A DNA stretch of 37,620 nt from Gemmatimonadota bacterium. GTDB lineage: Bacteria; Gemmatimonadota; Gemmatimonadetes; Longimicrobiales; Longimicrobiaceae. The stretch lies in NCBI GenBank assembly GCA_031260285.1, contig JAIRKD010000081.1:1-37620 (forward strand). Direction: 5' to 3'. Position numbers and translations under genes: made by a program. The number at the start of each line of letters is the position of its first letter. Positions within the stretch are counted from its first letter, which is position 1. Positions 29,161 through 36,716 of this stretch are shown piece after piece. The notes under the pieces were generated by a model, which had not been told where the DNA came from, searched no databases, and saw only the letters and a list, made by a program, of their open reading frames with translations.

Positions 29161-30057
29161 ATGAATTCCAGATTTCTACTCGAAGTTGTGATCGGAGCAA
29201 CCGTCATCATCGGGCTCCCGTCAACCCTCGCGGCCAGTCCGGGAAACGCATCATACGCTGAAGCGGGTGCTGGTCTTACCGGCGGAGGACCGGGTTTGCT
29301 CGGTGTTCCGGTGGAAGAAGCACGGGCGAAGGCAGAGCCGTCCGTCGCGATGGCGGCGCGTTCCGGCGCGGCGGCTGCCGCTTCCGCTGAGGCGGTGGAC
29401 GTCCGGGGCCTTTCGGCCGCGGTTGCGACCAATGTGCAGCAGGCCGTGACCCGTCTGAGCCCGCAGGTCTCGCGGAAGAGCCATGGGCAGGCGCTCCAGT
29501 ATGCGTTCCGTGCCTATTACCGGTACCGCTCTGCACATCCCGATGAGGTCCGGAACCCCTATCTGTACTTCGTGGACTTCGGCCTGAGCAGCGACACCCC
29601 CCGTGGCTATGTCTTCGACATGGTCAACCTCAGGGTGGTACGCGGGCCGTTCCACGTTGCTCATGGGCGGGGATCCGCACCGGGGGGAACGGCGGTTCCG
29701 ACCCGCTTCATGAATACAAACGGCAGCAACGCAACTTCTCTGGGGCTCTACCTCGCCCAGGAGACGTACAACTTCTCGGGTACCTCGGGTGGTCGTTCCT
29801 ATCGTTCAGTCGGGCTTCGGCTCAAGGGTGTGTCAGGCAACTTCAACGACCGGGCGCGTGTGCGGGGTGTTGTAGCCCACGGCGCTCCGTATGTAACCGG
29901 CAGTAACGCGGGACGCAGCGAAGGCTGCCCGGCGATGCCGCTGGCGCTTGCCTCGGAGCTGCTTCCGGAGATCGCCAACGGGGGAATGGTTTTCCACTTC
30001 TCGCCGGCGGATGTGAACTGGATGCGTTCTGACCCGTGGGGCGCGCCGGGAGTCTGA
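29161..30057 (+). CDS. murein L,D-transpeptidase catalytic domain protein (YkuD_2 family)
   Basis: Secreted 298-residue protein. A Sec signal peptide (VVIGATVIIGL, cleavage near LAA) is followed by an Ala/Gly-rich linker to about residue 85, then the catalytic domain. That domain has YLYFVDFGLSSDTPRGYVFDM, VAHGRGSAP, TSLGLYLAQETY, VVAHGAPYV with His240, and GRSEGCPAMP with the presumed catalytic Cys256. GRS-x-GCPA is the YkuD_2 signature. Such enzymes can form 3-3 crosslinks or anchor proteins to peptidoglycan; here the assignment is by family only. It stands alone between a weak promoter and a strong terminator. Confidence 0.88.
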   Translation: MNSRFLLEVVIGATVIIGLPSTLAASPGNASYAEAGAGLTGGGPGLLGVPVEEARAKAEPSVAMAARSGAAAAASAEAVDVRGLSAAVATNVQQAVTRLSPQVSRKSHGQALQYAFRAYYRYRSAHPDEVRNPYLYFVDFGLSSDTPRGYVFDMVNLRVVRGPFHVAHGRGSAPGGTAVPTRFMNTNGSNATSLGLYLAQETYNFSGTSGGRSYRSVGLRLKGVSGNFNDRARVRGVVAHGAPYVTGSNAGRSEGCPAMPLALASELLPEIANGGMVFHFSPADVNWMRSDPWGAPGV

Positions 30058-30353: not shown

Positions 30354-33300
30354 ATGCCGAAGCGTACAGACCTCAAAAGCATCCTCCTGCTCGGTTCAGG
30401 ACCGATCATCATCGGTCAGGCGGCCGAGTTTGATTATTCAGGGACCCAGGCGATCCGTGCCCTCCGCGAAGAGGGGTATCGGGTCATTCTGGTGAACTCC
30501 AATCCAGCCACGATCATGACGGACCCTGATCTGGCGGATCGGACGTACATCGAGCCCATCACCCCGGAGTGGGTGGAGCGGGTGATCGAGATCGAGAAGC
30601 CCGATGCGATCCTTCCCACGATGGGTGGGCAGACGGCGCTGAACGTTGCACTGGAACTGCACGACCGGGGAGTGCTGGCGAAACACGGCGTTGAGCTGCT
30701 GGGCGCGGACGCCCGTGCGATCCGGATGGCGGAAGACCGGAACGAATTTGCGAAGGCCATGAGCCGCATCGGGCTCTCCGTGCCGCATGGTGGTTTTGCG
30801 AAGTCGCTGGACGAAGCACGGCAGATTGTTGCGGAGACCGGGTATCCCGCGATCATCCGGCCCTCCTTCACCCTGGGCGGAACGGGCGGTGGCATCGCCT
30901 ACAACCGTGAGGAGTTCGAGGAGCAGGTGCAGTCCGGGATCTCCCTCTCCCCGATCGGAGAGGTGCTGATCGACCGCTCGGTTCTCGGCTGGAAGGAGTT
31001 CGAGCTTGAGCTGATGCGTGACAAGCGTGACAACGTTCTTGTCCTCTGCTCGATCGAGAACTTCGATCCGATGGGTGTCCATACGGGTGACTCGGTGACG
31101 GTGGCGCCCGCGCAGACGCTGACGGACTCCGAGTACCAGAAGATGCGTGACGCCGCGATTGCGATCATCCGTGAGATCGGGGTGGAGGCTGGTGGCTGCA
31201 ACCTCCAGTTTGCGGTGAACCCCGCAGACGGGGATCTCCTGGTGGTGGAGATGAATCCGCGGGTTTCGCGCTCTTCCGCGCTTGCCTCGAAGGCAACGGG
31301 CTTCCCGATCGCGCGTGTGGCCGCCAAGCTCGCGGTGGGCTATACACTGGATGAACTTCCCAACTCCATCACAAAAACCACCACCGCCTCGATCGAACCG
31401 ACCATCGATTACGTGGTTGTGAAGTTCCCCCGCTTCGCCTTCGAAAAGTTCCCGGCTGCGCCCGCGGTGCTCGGCGTACAGATGAAGGCGGTTGGCGAGT
31501 CGATGGCGATCGGCCGGACGTTCAAGCAGTCCTGGCAGAAGGCGATCCGCGCGCTTGAGATCGGGCGCATGGGGTGGGATGTCGGGCGTACGCTGGCTGA
31601 TGACCGCCTCCGGGATGATTCGATCGAGACGGTCCGTGCTGCCCTGCGTCAGCCCACCCCCGAGCGGCCGTACCAGATCAAGCGGGCGCTGATGATGGGG
31701 ATGACTGTCACGGAAGTGGCGGATCTGACCACCATCGATCCCTGGTTCATCGCCCAGCTTGCACAGCTTGTCGAGGCAGAGACCCGGTACCGGGAGCTCA
31801 GCGCGGTCAGCGCGTCCGAGGTGCTTCGTATGAAGCGGATGGGCTTCTCTGATGTGCAGCTGGCGCGGCTCCGCGGTGAGACGGAGACCCAGGCGAGAGA
31901 CCGCCGGTGGGAGATGGGCATCCATCCCGTCTTCAATATGGTGGATACCTGCGCCGGTCAGGTCCCGGCACAGACGCCGTATCTTTATTCGACCTACGCC
32001 GAGCAGAACGAATCCGTCCGGACCGACCGTCCGAAGGTGGTCATCCTCGGCAGCGGACCGAACCGGATCGGGCAGGGCGTGGAGTTCGATTACTGCTGCG
32101 TGCAGGCGTCGCTGGCGCTCCGGGAAGCGGGATGGGAGACGATCATGGTCAACTCCAACCCCGAGACGGTATCCACCGACTTCGATATCTCCGACAAGCT
32201 CTACTTCGAGCCGCTGACGCTTGAGGACGTGCTCGAAATTGTACGCCTGGAGCGGCCCGAAGGTGTGATTGTTCAGCTCGGCGGACAGACTCCGCTGAAG
32301 CTTGCGGGTCCGCTTTCGGCGATGGGAGTGCGGATTCTGGGCACCTCGGTGGAGTCCATCGACCGCGCGGAGGATCGCGAGCGGTTCGAGGAAGTTGCGC
32401 GGAGCCTCAATGTGGCCCAGCCGCCGAACGGTAACGCGACAAGTGTAGACACCGCTGCGGAGATCGCGCAGCGTATCGGATACCCGGTGCTGCTGCGCCC
32501 CAGCTATGTACTGGGTGGGCGGGGAATGGTCATCGTATACGACGAGACCGGTCTTCGTGACTATTTCGAGCGCGCCGTCAGCGTCTCCGAGGAGCGGCCG
32601 GTTCTCATCGACCGGTTCCTTGAGGATGCATTTGAAGCGGACGTTGATGCATTGTGTGACGGTGAGACGGTGGTGATCGGCGGGGTGATGCAGCACATCG
32701 AGGAGGCGGGAGTTCACTCCGGAGACTCCGCCTGCGTCCTGCCGCCCTATCTGCTGGGGGATCAGCAGATCGAGGAGATGCGCGAGCACACCCGTCGTTT
32801 TGCGCTGGAACTCGGCGTGGTCGGGTTGATCAACGTACAGTACGCGGTCTTTGAGGGGCGGGTCTACGTGCTGGAGGTGAACCCGCGTGCGTCGCGTACC
32901 GTTCCGTTTGTATCGAAGGCGACAGGGGTTCCGCTGGCAAGAATCGCCTCGCGGATCATGGCCGGAGAGAAGCTCGCGAGCTTCGGACTGCCGGAGAAGA
33001 TTCCGGTTCACGGAGTTGCGGTGAAGGAAGCGGTTTTCCCCTTCAACAAGATCGACATCGACCCGATCCTCGGCCCTGAGATGCGTTCGACGGGTGAGTC
33101 GATGGGGATTGACGACTCGTTCGGGATGGCGTTTGCGAAGGCGCAGATCTCTGCGGGAATGGCTCTTCCGCAGGAGGGTGCGGTGATTCTGACAGTGAAC
33201 GATCGGGACAAGGGCACCGTGGTGCCGATTGCGCGCCGTCTGCACGATATGGGCTTCCGGCTGCTCGCCAGCGCGGGTACTTCCGCGTATCTGAAGACAC

Positions 33301-33578
33301 GCGGGATCCCCTCGGAAGTGGTGCTGAAGGTCAACGAAGGCCGTCCGAATATGGTGGATCTGATGATCTCGGGGGATGTGGGCCTGCTCATCAATACGCC
33401 GCTCGGGAAGCAGTCTCAGTACGATGACCGGGCGATGCGGCGGGCGGCGATTTCGAACGGGATCCCCTATGCGACAACGATGTCAGCGGCGTCCGCCGCG
33501 GTTGACGCGATCAGCGCGCTGCGGAACCGGCGGCGTGAGGTCCGGTCGATCCAGGAGCGCATTGCTGAGGGGCGGTAA
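30354..33578 (+). CDS. carB: carbamoyl-phosphate synthase, large subunit
   Basis: Makes carbamoyl phosphate for pyrimidines and arginine. The 1074-residue length is the family standard. The two homologous ATP-grasp halves are visible: the first has [35 protein letters not shown] and [18 protein letters not shown]; the second has [30 protein letters not shown] and [18 protein letters not shown]. The C-terminal MGS-like allosteric domain (from about residue 940) has [15 protein letters not shown] and a conserved nucleotide-effector region. CarA is not in the window. The start at 30354 follows GAAGGA by 8 bases. Confidence 0.98.
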
Positions 33579-33608
33579 ACGCTGATCGGAGTGTCGATCA
33601 GGAGAGGT

Positions 33609-34496
33609 GTGACGGAGAAGCGAACGGCGTTTGTCAGCCACGCTGACTGTTCTCTGCATGATACCGGATGGGGGCATCCGGATCATCAGGGACGGCTGGC
33701 GGGGCTGACACGCGCCGTTTATGCTGATATGCTTGATCTCTTCGATCCGCTTCTCGATCTGGAAGGCCGGCACGCGACGGACGGGGAGTTGCAACTCTGG
33801 CACAAGCCGGATTACCTGACCGAGGCGCGGGATCGGGTTGTCGGGGCGTCTGCCGTGGGTCGACCGGTGGAGTTGCAGCCGGGGCTGGTGGTGTCCGGCG
33901 CGAGCTGGGACGCTTCAACCGCCGCGGTGGGAAGTGTTCTGACCGCGATTGACGCCGTGACGGCGGGGGCGGTGGAGAACGCATTCTGCGCTGTCCGTCC
34001 GCCGGCGCGCGACGCGATGCCCGATGCTCCCGGGCGATGGGGGCTGCTGAACCCCGTCGCGGTGGGTGTGCGGTATCTTCTTCGCCACGGAATTGCGGAA
34101 CGGGTTCTGGTGGTGGAGTGGGGTGAGCCCCCTGCCTCTGCCGGAATCGGGGCGGAGGAGAATGTACGGGTTGCCCGTGTTGACTGGTCCGGTAATGTCG
34201 TAACTTCTCCGGAGGAAGCGGTGCGCCGGGCGATCGGACAGGAGCTGCATGGTGAGTTCATCCCCGGGTTTGTGCTTCTCTCCTGCGGGTTTGATCTGCC
34301 CGGAGATGGGTCGGAGCGGGAGGGAGAGATCTCTTCGCTCAGCTTTTACGGAGCAACGGAGGCAGTACGTGCGGTTGCGCTCCAGTATGCTGAAGGAAGG
34401 CTGGTTTCGGTTCTTGAGGGAGGGTACAACTCCCGGCTGGGGCGGTGTGCTGTCCAGCACCTTCGGGCTCTGGCGGGCCTGCCTCCGCATGACTGA
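33609..34496 (+). CDS. histone-deacetylase-fold protein lacking catalytic motifs
   Basis: Full-length arginase/HDAC-like fold of 295 residues with no frameshift. Family landmarks kept are SLHDTGWGHPD near the start, AFCAVRPP, the SCGFD strand (Asp229) and VLEGGYN. The catalytic segments are replaced: the usual GHH after RPP is ARD (133-135), GFCxFNN is WGLLNPV, and the zinc-binding DVHHG is GEPPA (172-176). Two of three zinc ligands and the charge-relay His are therefore absent, so classical deacetylation is unlikely. GTG at 33609 is chosen because AGGAGAGG lies directly before it; an upstream GTG at 33591 lacks this. It begins 30 bases after carB and could be co-transcribed. Function unknown. 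Confidence 0.8.
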   Translation: MTEKRTAFVSHADCSLHDTGWGHPDHQGRLAGLTRAVYADMLDLFDPLLDLEGRHATDGELQLWHKPDYLTEARDRVVGASAVGRPVELQPGLVVSGASWDASTAAVGSVLTAIDAVTAGAVENAFCAVRPPARDAMPDAPGRWGLLNPVAVGVRYLLRHGIAERVLVVEWGEPPASAGIGAEENVRVARVDWSGNVVTSPEEAVRRAIGQELHGEFIPGFVLLSCGFDLPGDGSEREGEISSLSFYGATEAVRAVALQYAEGRLVSVLEGGYNSRLGRCAVQHLRALAGLPPHD

Positions 34497-34537: not shown

Positions 34538-34557
34538 CCGGATATACCGGATATAAT
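34538..34557 (+). promoter_or_regulatory. tandem 9-bp repeat ending in a TATAAT box
   Basis: CCGGATATA occurs twice in direct tandem (34538-34546, 34547-34555), and the second copy runs into a perfect TATAAT (34552-34557). No good -35 box is present at 16-18 bases. The TATAAT overlaps the ATG at 34556, which argues for translation from the ATG at 34577. Confidence 0.4.
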
Positions 34558-34576
34558 GGACGCCAACTTTCTGTTC

Positions 34577-35434
34577 ATGTCACAACACTCCTCTGAGTCC
34601 TCCCCCGGAGGTTCTTTTTTCGGGCGGATCGCTCCCCGGGGGGTTCCCTCCGTTCTGGACCTTGTCCGCCTCAGTCCCGAGCCGGTATTCCCTCCCGGTG
34701 GCGAGGCGCTTTACCGTCAGATCGGGCTCTTCACCGAAATGCGGCCGGGGCAGGAAATCCTTGTCGCGGCGTGCGGGCGCGGGCTTACCACGGCTTATCT
34801 CGCGGTGAACCAGGGAGTCCACTGCATCGGCGTGGACCCCGACCCCCAACTGGTTGCGGAGGCTGAGCAGCGCATCCGCGCGATGGGGCTGGATAACCGG
34901 ATCACCTTCGAGACCGCTTCCCTTGACGATCTGCCCTGGCAGGATGGGGTCTTTGATGTCACCGTCGGTGAAATCGCTCTCGGCGCGATGGCGGACCCCG
35001 CCGCGGCCATCCGGGAACTCGCCCGTGTCACCAAACCGCTGGGTCTGGTTGTTCTTGTCCAGCTTGTCTGGAGTGGCAACGTAGATGAAGAGCAACGGGA
35101 GAATCTGCTGGAACACCTCGGGACCCGACCGCTCTTTATCGTTGAGTGGAAACAGTTCCTCCGCGACGCCGGGTGTGTGGACCTCCATGTGGAGGACTGG
35201 TCGGATGCAGCCTCTCCCTTCCGACCCGTGTCCGGCCCCATGTACGATCTCACAAAGCAGCTCTCCCTCCGTCAGAAAGTCGCCGTCTTCCGCCGGGCGC
35301 TGGGTCGCTGGGGCTGGCGCGGAATGCGCGGTGCCCTGATGCGGGAACAGGAGATCCATAACCTCCTCTCCAACCAGCGGGTACTCGGACTTTCGCTCAT
35401 CATCGGCGCGAAGTGGCATCCGGACGGGTTGTAA
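34577..35434 (+). CDS. SAM-dependent methyltransferase (class I)
   Basis: 285 residues from the ATG at 34577; an upstream ATG at 34556 lies in a probable -10 box and is less likely. The Rossmann methyltransferase core starts with LVAACGRGLTTAYLA (a variant of the glycine loop), GVDPDPQLVAEAEQRI (motif II with acidic residue), DLPWQDGVFDVTV and a ARVTKPLGLVVLVQ strand. The protein has about 60 residues before and about 90 after the core. Substrate is not deducible; methyltransf_11-type enzymes act on small molecules or lipids. It lies between the pseudo-HDAC and M24 genes. Confidence 0.8.
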   Translation: MSQHSSESSPGGSFFGRIAPRGVPSVLDLVRLSPEPVFPPGGEALYRQIGLFTEMRPGQEILVAACGRGLTTAYLAVNQGVHCIGVDPDPQLVAEAEQRIRAMGLDNRITFETASLDDLPWQDGVFDVTVGEIALGAMADPAAAIRELARVTKPLGLVVLVQLVWSGNVDEEQRENLLEHLGTRPLFIVEWKQFLRDAGCVDLHVEDWSDAASPFRPVSGPMYDLTKQLSLRQKVAVFRRALGRWGWRGMRGALMREQEIHNLLSNQRVLGLSLIIGAKWHPDGL

Positions 35435-35507: not shown

Positions 35508-36716
35508 ATGGGAATCACCGAAGCGAAGGTCCGTTTTGATGGAGAGTCGCTCGCTCAGGCCCAGGCGCTGATTCAGGAGCTGGGGCTGGACGGGTGGCTG
35601 CTCTATGACTTCCATGGAAACAATCCCATCGCCAGCGGAGTTCTCGGTCTGCCGGGGCTTACCCGCCGGTACTTTGTACTGATTCCCGCCCAGGGGCGGC
35701 CCGTCGCACTCACTCACCGGATTGAACAGCAGCCATGGGAAGGCTGGATCGGTGAGACCCGTCGATATCTGGGGTGGCAAAGCCTTCAGCTGGAGCTGAA
35801 GCGGATGCTCTCCGGACTGGGCCGGGTTGCGATGGAGTTTTCTCCCTCTGACGCTGTGCCTTATCTGGACCGGGTTCCCGCGGGGGTGCTGGAGATGGTC
35901 CAGGCGACCGGGGTCAGCGTTGTGTCTTCAGCGGATCTGGCGAGCGCCCTCTATTCCCGCTGGAGTGAAGCCGGTCTGGCCAGCCATCTGCGAGCTGGCG
36001 AAGTTCTTCGGGAAACTGCCTTTGCGGCGTTTGATCATGTGGGTGACCTTCTCCGTTCCGGCCGGCGGGTGAATGAATGGCAGATGCGTGAGTGGGTTGT
36101 TGACCGCCTCACCTCCCGGGGGGTATCCGTCGGGGTGGACTCCATCGTTGCCGTTGATGCAAACGCCGCGAACCCGCACTACGCTCCGGGCGCTGACTCT
36201 CACAGCGAGATCCGTCCCGGGTGTGTACTCCTGATTGATCTCTGGGGGAAGGAATCAGACGCCTCGGTTTTTGCCGACCAGACCTGGATGGCGTACATCG
36301 GAACCAGCGTTCCGGATCGCGTTCAGCATCTCTGGACCACAATCCGCGACGCCCGGGACTCTGCGGTTGAGTTCATCCGCTCCCGTCACGCGACCGGTCA
36401 GGCATTGGCCGGCTTCGAGGTGGACGATGTATGTCGCGGCCTGATTGTGGACCGTGGACTTGGGGATTTTTTCCTTCACCGGACCGGCCATTCCATTGAT
36501 CGGGAACTTCACGGCTCCGGCCCCAACATCGACAACCTGGAGACCCGGGATACACGTCTTCTCATTCCCGGCATCGGATTCTCGATTGAACCCGGTGTCT
36601 ACCTGGAAAGTGACACAGGCCTCCGCACCGAGATTGATGTGTTCATGACCCCGAACGGCCCTGAGATCACCACTCCGGAACCGCAGCATGATCTCTACCT
36701 TGTTCCGGTGGGCTGA
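35508..36716 (+). CDS. M24-family metallopeptidase, Xaa-Pro aminopeptidase type
   Basis: 402 residues. The N-terminal creatinase-like domain (to about 160) is followed by the pita-bread catalytic domain. All five metal ligands can be placed: Asp244 (CVLLIDLWGK), Asp257 (FADQTW), His328 (HRTGHSIDRELHG), Glu361 (FSIEPGVYLE) and Glu375 (GLRTEIDVFM). The spacing between the first two ligands is 13, slightly longer than usual. Substrate specificity (Xaa-Pro peptides or other) is not shown. It is preceded by imperfect direct repeats at 35447-35492. The epimerase gene follows 12 bases after its stop, so the two are probably co-transcribed. Confidence 0.88.
   Translation: MGITEAKVRFDGESLAQAQALIQELGLDGWLLYDFHGNNPIASGVLGLPGLTRRYFVLIPAQGRPVALTHRIEQQPWEGWIGETRRYLGWQSLQLELKRMLSGLGRVAMEFSPSDAVPYLDRVPAGVLEMVQATGVSVVSSADLASALYSRWSEAGLASHLRAGEVLRETAFAAFDHVGDLLRSGRRVNEWQMREWVVDRLTSRGVSVGVDSIVAVDANAANPHYAPGADSHSEIRPGCVLLIDLWGKESDASVFADQTWMAYIGTSVPDRVQHLWTTIRDARDSAVEFIRSRHATGQALAGFEVDDVCRGLIVDRGLGDFFLHRTGHSIDRELHGSGPNIDNLETRDTRLLIPGIGFSIEPGVYLESDTGLRTEIDVFMTPNGPEITTPEPQHDLYLVPVG

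Follow-up and report, generated by a model that had tools for sequence, protein, structure and literature searches.

The closest described relatives of the protein considered here are the class II, or cluster 1, deacylases, which include HdaH of Klebsiella and Pseudomonas, the Burkholderia protein 5ji5 and eukaryotic HDAC6. The principal survey of classical deacylases in bacteria describes the catalytic residues as totally conserved among the representatives that it aligned, and in the cluster 1b enzymes an N-terminal loop, L1, holds the tetramer together with a contribution from the C-terminal helix (PMC11532494). Pseudo-deacetylase domains are already known from HDAC10 (PMC5454378), a eukaryotic protein whose C-terminal HDAC domain is catalytically dead yet evolutionarily conserved (PMC5454378; PMC11532494). 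No description of a free-standing, family-wide bacterial pseudo-HDAC was found in the open-access literature searched.

The window, i.e., the whole stretch of 37,620 nucleotides of Gemmatimonadota DNA that was analysed, comes from an assembly of 2.76 Mb in 110 contigs. It encodes a protein that resembles the cluster 1 deacylases in its fold, its match to PF00850, its RPP and EGGY motifs and its L1 region, but lacks their double-His, their GFC motif and their Asp-His zinc pair, and has their PGTG/GxGxGxT loop deleted or rewritten. Like the HDAC10 pseudo-domain it has lost its catalytic residues and been kept; unlike that domain, which is fused to an active one, it is free-standing and bacterial and has a family-wide history of its own. 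It also differs from the AcuC-type deacetylase of the same genome, a separate paralogue that matches PF00850 and has an intact active site. The product of the window gene is very probably a retained, non-catalytic pseudoenzyme of the HDAC fold.

An HDAC-fold gene between carB and an M24 peptidase gene

The reading frame begins with GTG at 33609 and stays open over 295 codons to the TGA at 34496, which bears out the clean frame claimed in the preliminary description; a second in-frame GTG lies ahead of this start, at 33591. The encoded protein scores 101.4 bits against the PF00850 profile, above the curated cut-off of 27.9 (E value in Table 1), and is a class II HDAC-fold protein. A structure model built from a six-row alignment, which comprised the window protein and five canonical relatives, gave a pTM of 0.84 and a mean pLDDT of 75.7. 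Foldseek searches with this model ranked class II HDACs first (5ji5, Pseudomonas aeruginosa HdaH and HDAC6, with TM of ~0.75-0.78), and a sequence search of solved structures agreed. The parallel α/β HDAC fold is thus retained by prediction, from an alignment that included canonical relatives, and confidence in the model is low at residues 18-20, 134-144, 195-197 and 230-239, which are mostly former active-site loops.

The gene order in the window is carB, HDAC-fold gene, methyltransferase and M24 peptidase (Table 1). These neighbours, first proposed from the letters of the sequence, were confirmed, and the methyltransferase belongs to class I. Within the order, the window belongs to a family designated here f1, and two sister families, f2 and f3, carry a canonical deacetylase at the carB locus (loci L088-L107), with carB alongside in 16 of 20 cases and the M24 gene in 17 of 20. 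The neighbourhood is partly retained within f1: besides the window, the M24 gene is kept at 14 of 18 loci and carB is visible within the fetched stretch at 5 of 18. Four f1 loci show neither neighbour; either the linkage has been broken there or the contig stops short, and the HDAC-fold gene is kept all the same.

Several other features of the locus were observed. Some f1 genomes that keep the HDAC-fold gene and the M24 gene lack the adjacent methyltransferase or have another in its place; its counterpart at L080 shows 33% identity, and no match was found at L068 and L071. A 935-amino acid open frame lies antisense to carB on the minus strand (30438-33245); high GC content, rather than a gene, is its likeliest explanation. 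Upstream, at 29161-30057, the window encodes a 298-amino acid protein that has no NCBIfam match and an orthologue near the same locus in genome G009 (L083). Judging by its sequence, we take it to resemble an L,D-transpeptidase-like (YkuD_2-type) protein.

Table 1. Positions in the window of the HDAC-fold gene, its neighbours and selected protein segments
Feature	Position	Strand	Remarks
carB (carbamoyl-phosphate synthase large chain)	30354..33578	+	Upstream neighbour; also in sister families
HDAC-fold pseudoenzyme ORF (very probable reading)	33609..34496	+	295 aa, GTG start; AGGAG at 33600-33604; PF00850 E 7.6e-29; predicted fold
N-terminal L1 region, residues 11-30, HADCSLHDTGWGHPDHQGRL	33639..33698	+	Constrained like active sisters, mean relative rate 0.42 vs 0.36
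R35	33711..33713	+	Fixed in f1; Ser in most canonical sisters
RPPARDA, residues 130-136	33996..34016	+	RPP kept, catalytic double-His gone
WGLLNP, residues 144-149	34038..34055	+	GFC motif gone; Asn148 kept in all members
EWGEPPA, residues 170-176	34116..34136	+	DWDVHHG zinc-ligand segment gone; D-to-G in 18/19 members
SCGFDLPGDG, residues 225-234	34281..34310	+	Third zinc Asp position, out of register in window copy
LEGGYN, residues 269-274	34413..34430	+	EGGY motif, former catalytic Tyr kept
Q283-H284	34455..34460	+	Family-specific, C-terminal helix; H284 in 18/18 rows covering that position
Class I SAM methyltransferase	34556..35434	+	Downstream neighbour
M24 (Xaa-Pro peptidase-like) protein	35508..36716	+	Downstream neighbour

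Loss of catalytic residues across the family

The kept and lost motifs quoted in the preliminary description are all present as it gave them. The window protein keeps SLHDTGWGHPD, RPP (130-132), SCGFD (225-229) and LEGGYN (269-274), while the double-His sequence GHH has become ARD at 133-135, the FCLFN(N/H) stretch of the GFC motif has become WGLLNP at 144-149 and the zinc-ligand sequence DVHHG has become GEPPA at 172-176. The third zinc ligand, the Asp of GDPLG, is out of register, as the window sequence LPGDGSE places a Gly in its column and the Asp one residue earlier. A further segment that is conserved in the canonical sisters, SLHQ..YPGTG..GxGxGxTLN, is deleted or rewritten.

An orthologue was recovered in 19 of the 21 f1 genomes, and all 19 copies have lost catalytic residues, so the substitutions first noticed in the window have their equivalents throughout one clade. 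In the alignment of these copies, D172 and H135 are retained in none and H134 and H174 in two each, and the HH pair occurs in 0/19. The GFC motif survives in a single copy (L068; the window reads RWG). The third zinc Asp (D264) is kept in 16 of 19, the window copy excepted, and the foot-pocket motifs, present in the window, are general in the family (RPP in 17/19, the Tyr of (E)GGY in 17/19). With two of its three zinc ligands gone, along with the double-His and the GFC motif, the f1 protein is, to judge from its sequence, almost certainly a zinc deacetylase no longer. In the canonical comparison set, 25 sequences drawn from f2, from f3 and from named Gemmatimonadetes records, no catalytic residue has been lost, and a DNA pattern coding D(V/I/M)HHGNGT was detected in 0/21 f1 genomes vs 123/133 other genomes of the order.

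In a phylogenetic tree, the dead and canonical sequences are split by one change with support of 100/99. Within the f1 clade, the window copy has diverged furthest: it sits on the longest branch, and its losses exceed those of the other members. Taken with the shared gene neighbourhood, the tree indicates that the dead form is the orthologue, by position and descent, of the f2/f3 enzyme, which retains all of its catalytic residues; a paralogous origin was rejected on the same grounds. The canonical homologue at the same locus that the preliminary description had named as evidence against a pseudoenzyme exists only at the level of the sister families, and no f1 genome carries one, which argues for an old, lineage-specific loss and against both local error and recent decay. 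The active-to-dead change thus happened once, in the f1 ancestor, and was followed by long retention. A local sequencing, assembly or frame error, conceivable in a fragmented assembly, has a negligible probability and was rejected, since the same kind of loss recurs in 18 other genomes.

The gene was not recovered in two f1 genomes, G003 and G017. Both are ~86% complete and gave no M24 match at the threshold used, and the absence is therefore read as missing assembly; gene loss was rejected as its explanation. The copy in G002 (L009/L072), a genome 72% complete, contains an in-frame TAG and may be a pseudogene in that genome or the product of a sequencing error. No other in-frame stop was reported among the remaining f1 copies, which span several genera. 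Across the phylum, a family-profile search of 395 sampled genomes at E 1e-105, a threshold that less similar independent losses would escape, found no dead relatives elsewhere; only 14 f1 members and two f2 genomes, the latter with canonical proteins, passed.

Constraint on the retained protein

Among close f1 pairs, dN/dS is mostly 0.15-0.34, reaching 0.56. All measured ratios are significantly lower than 1, and comparable values were obtained for the M24 neighbour in these pairs. This range covers f1 pairs other than the window copy, whose ratio has no value because synonymous sites are saturated against its nearest relative. The dN/dS comparison proposed at the outset therefore came out well below 1 for the family, with the window copy saturated. 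The central proposal of the preliminary description, a pseudoenzyme kept by selection, is supported by the clade-wide loss, by dN/dS below 1 in all measurable pairs and by the modelled fold.

Selection on individual sites has shifted. The five lost catalytic positions evolve in f1 at a mean relative rate of 1.17 (2.41 at the former H174), as compared with 0.06-0.08 for the catalytic residues of the active clade, and a test for unusual conservation of these five replaced positions was negative (p 0.70). A wider set of pocket positions is somewhat slow in f1 (rate 0.70, p 0.02). The L1 segment (residues 12-31 in sister numbering) is constrained in the dead clade nearly as in the active one (Table 1), and Asn148, Arg29 (Arg30 in the sisters), the Tyr of EGGY and RPP are likewise slow. 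Seventeen positions, H284, Q283, R35 and S267 among them, are fixed in f1 to a residue that canonical sequences rarely have, a signal that partly reflects common ancestry within a single clade; A204 is likewise a family-specific conserved site. Relaxed catalytic sites combined with new constraint elsewhere form the pattern that a change of function predicts.

The opposite reading, in which a dying enzyme in slow decay has stayed open by chance, draws on the heavy divergence of the window copy, on the stop codon in G002 and on a pace of evolution ~1.3-fold that of the sister families (ratio of protein distance to that of M24, 1.33 vs 0.94-1.03). It is nonetheless very unlikely. The other f1 copies have no reported in-frame stop, even though they come from genera whose divergence would have scrambled a sequence under no constraint, and simple decay was mostly rejected on the dN/dS values and the newly constrained sites.

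Possible roles of the HDAC-fold protein and the AcuC paralogue

An AcuC-type deacetylase was detected at E 1e-60 in 18 of 21 f1 genomes, the other three being 61-86% complete; in the genome of the window it lies at G000:C79:6578-7477 (L001). At the same threshold, 7 of the 12 f2 genomes sampled had AcuC, as against none of those sampled from f3. This patchy distribution mirrors the loss of activity at the carB locus: f3, which lacks AcuC, keeps the canonical carB-locus enzyme, and f1, with a dead one, nearly always has AcuC, a correlation that spans three families only. As f2 often combines AcuC with a canonical carB-locus enzyme, AcuC is at most permissive and insufficient alone to explain the loss.

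The history of the gene can be read from the sequences. A canonical class II (cluster 1, HDAC6/HdaH-like) deacetylase is encoded between carB and the M24 peptidase gene across the order. In the f1 ancestor, its orthologue lost its double-His, its GFC motif and two of its three zinc ligands, a loss of catalysis probably tolerated since AcuC covers deacetylation. Since then, the frame has been kept intact under purifying selection and new residues have been fixed. The role of the protein is a proposal: its constrained L1 region and altered C-terminal helix would bind a protein partner or oligomerise, which would most simply account for an L1 among the most constrained segments and a new invariant His in the C-terminal helix. 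A plausible candidate for the partner is an active deacetylase, for instance the AcuC paralogue encoded by almost every f1 member, although AcuC also occurs in those f2 genomes that retain a canonical carB-locus enzyme. That the pseudoenzyme works as a non-catalytic, partner-binding or oligomerising subunit, plausibly of AcuC, is a proposition with about even chances. The more specific proposal of a regulatory pseudo-deacetylase fixed in the f1 ancestor, which would form mixed oligomers with AcuC, control it or read acylated lysines, is possible but doubtful.

The main alternative to oligomerisation or partner binding is ligand sensing, although it is itself unlikely. RPP, EGGY, Arg29 and Asn148 would preserve a foot pocket in which acetate, another small acyl compound or acyl-lysine is bound but not hydrolysed. 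The continued constraint on these residues fits such a role, and so does a precedent, as clade A HDAC11 proteins that show no activity on the acyl-peptides tested can hold short- or medium-chain fatty acids in the foot pocket (PMC13325672). The same residues may, however, simply stabilise the fold; the pocket-lining loops have been deleted or rewritten and are modelled with low confidence, and fusion to an effector domain is absent. The family literature suggests that R29, Y273 and N148 belong to the foot pocket or to the fold. A different chemistry, metal-free or with another metal, in a pocket rebuilt around GR[GD], WGxRPP and the remaining Asp and Tyr, is quite unlikely. The retention of the third-ligand Asp and of the Tyr in most copies would suit it, as would a common pattern of replacement (R134 in 14/19, G172 in 18/19, P175 in 15/19), but the replacing positions evolve at about the average rate, far from that of catalytic residues, and the window copy has no in-register Asp.

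The f1 proteins caution that a match to PF00850, or an annotation as histone deacetylase, does not equate with deacetylation. They provide a phylogenetically placed transition from enzyme to pseudoenzyme that is directly testable, in which a whole family keeps a dead HDAC in place of the orthologue that its sister families maintain, active, at the same locus.
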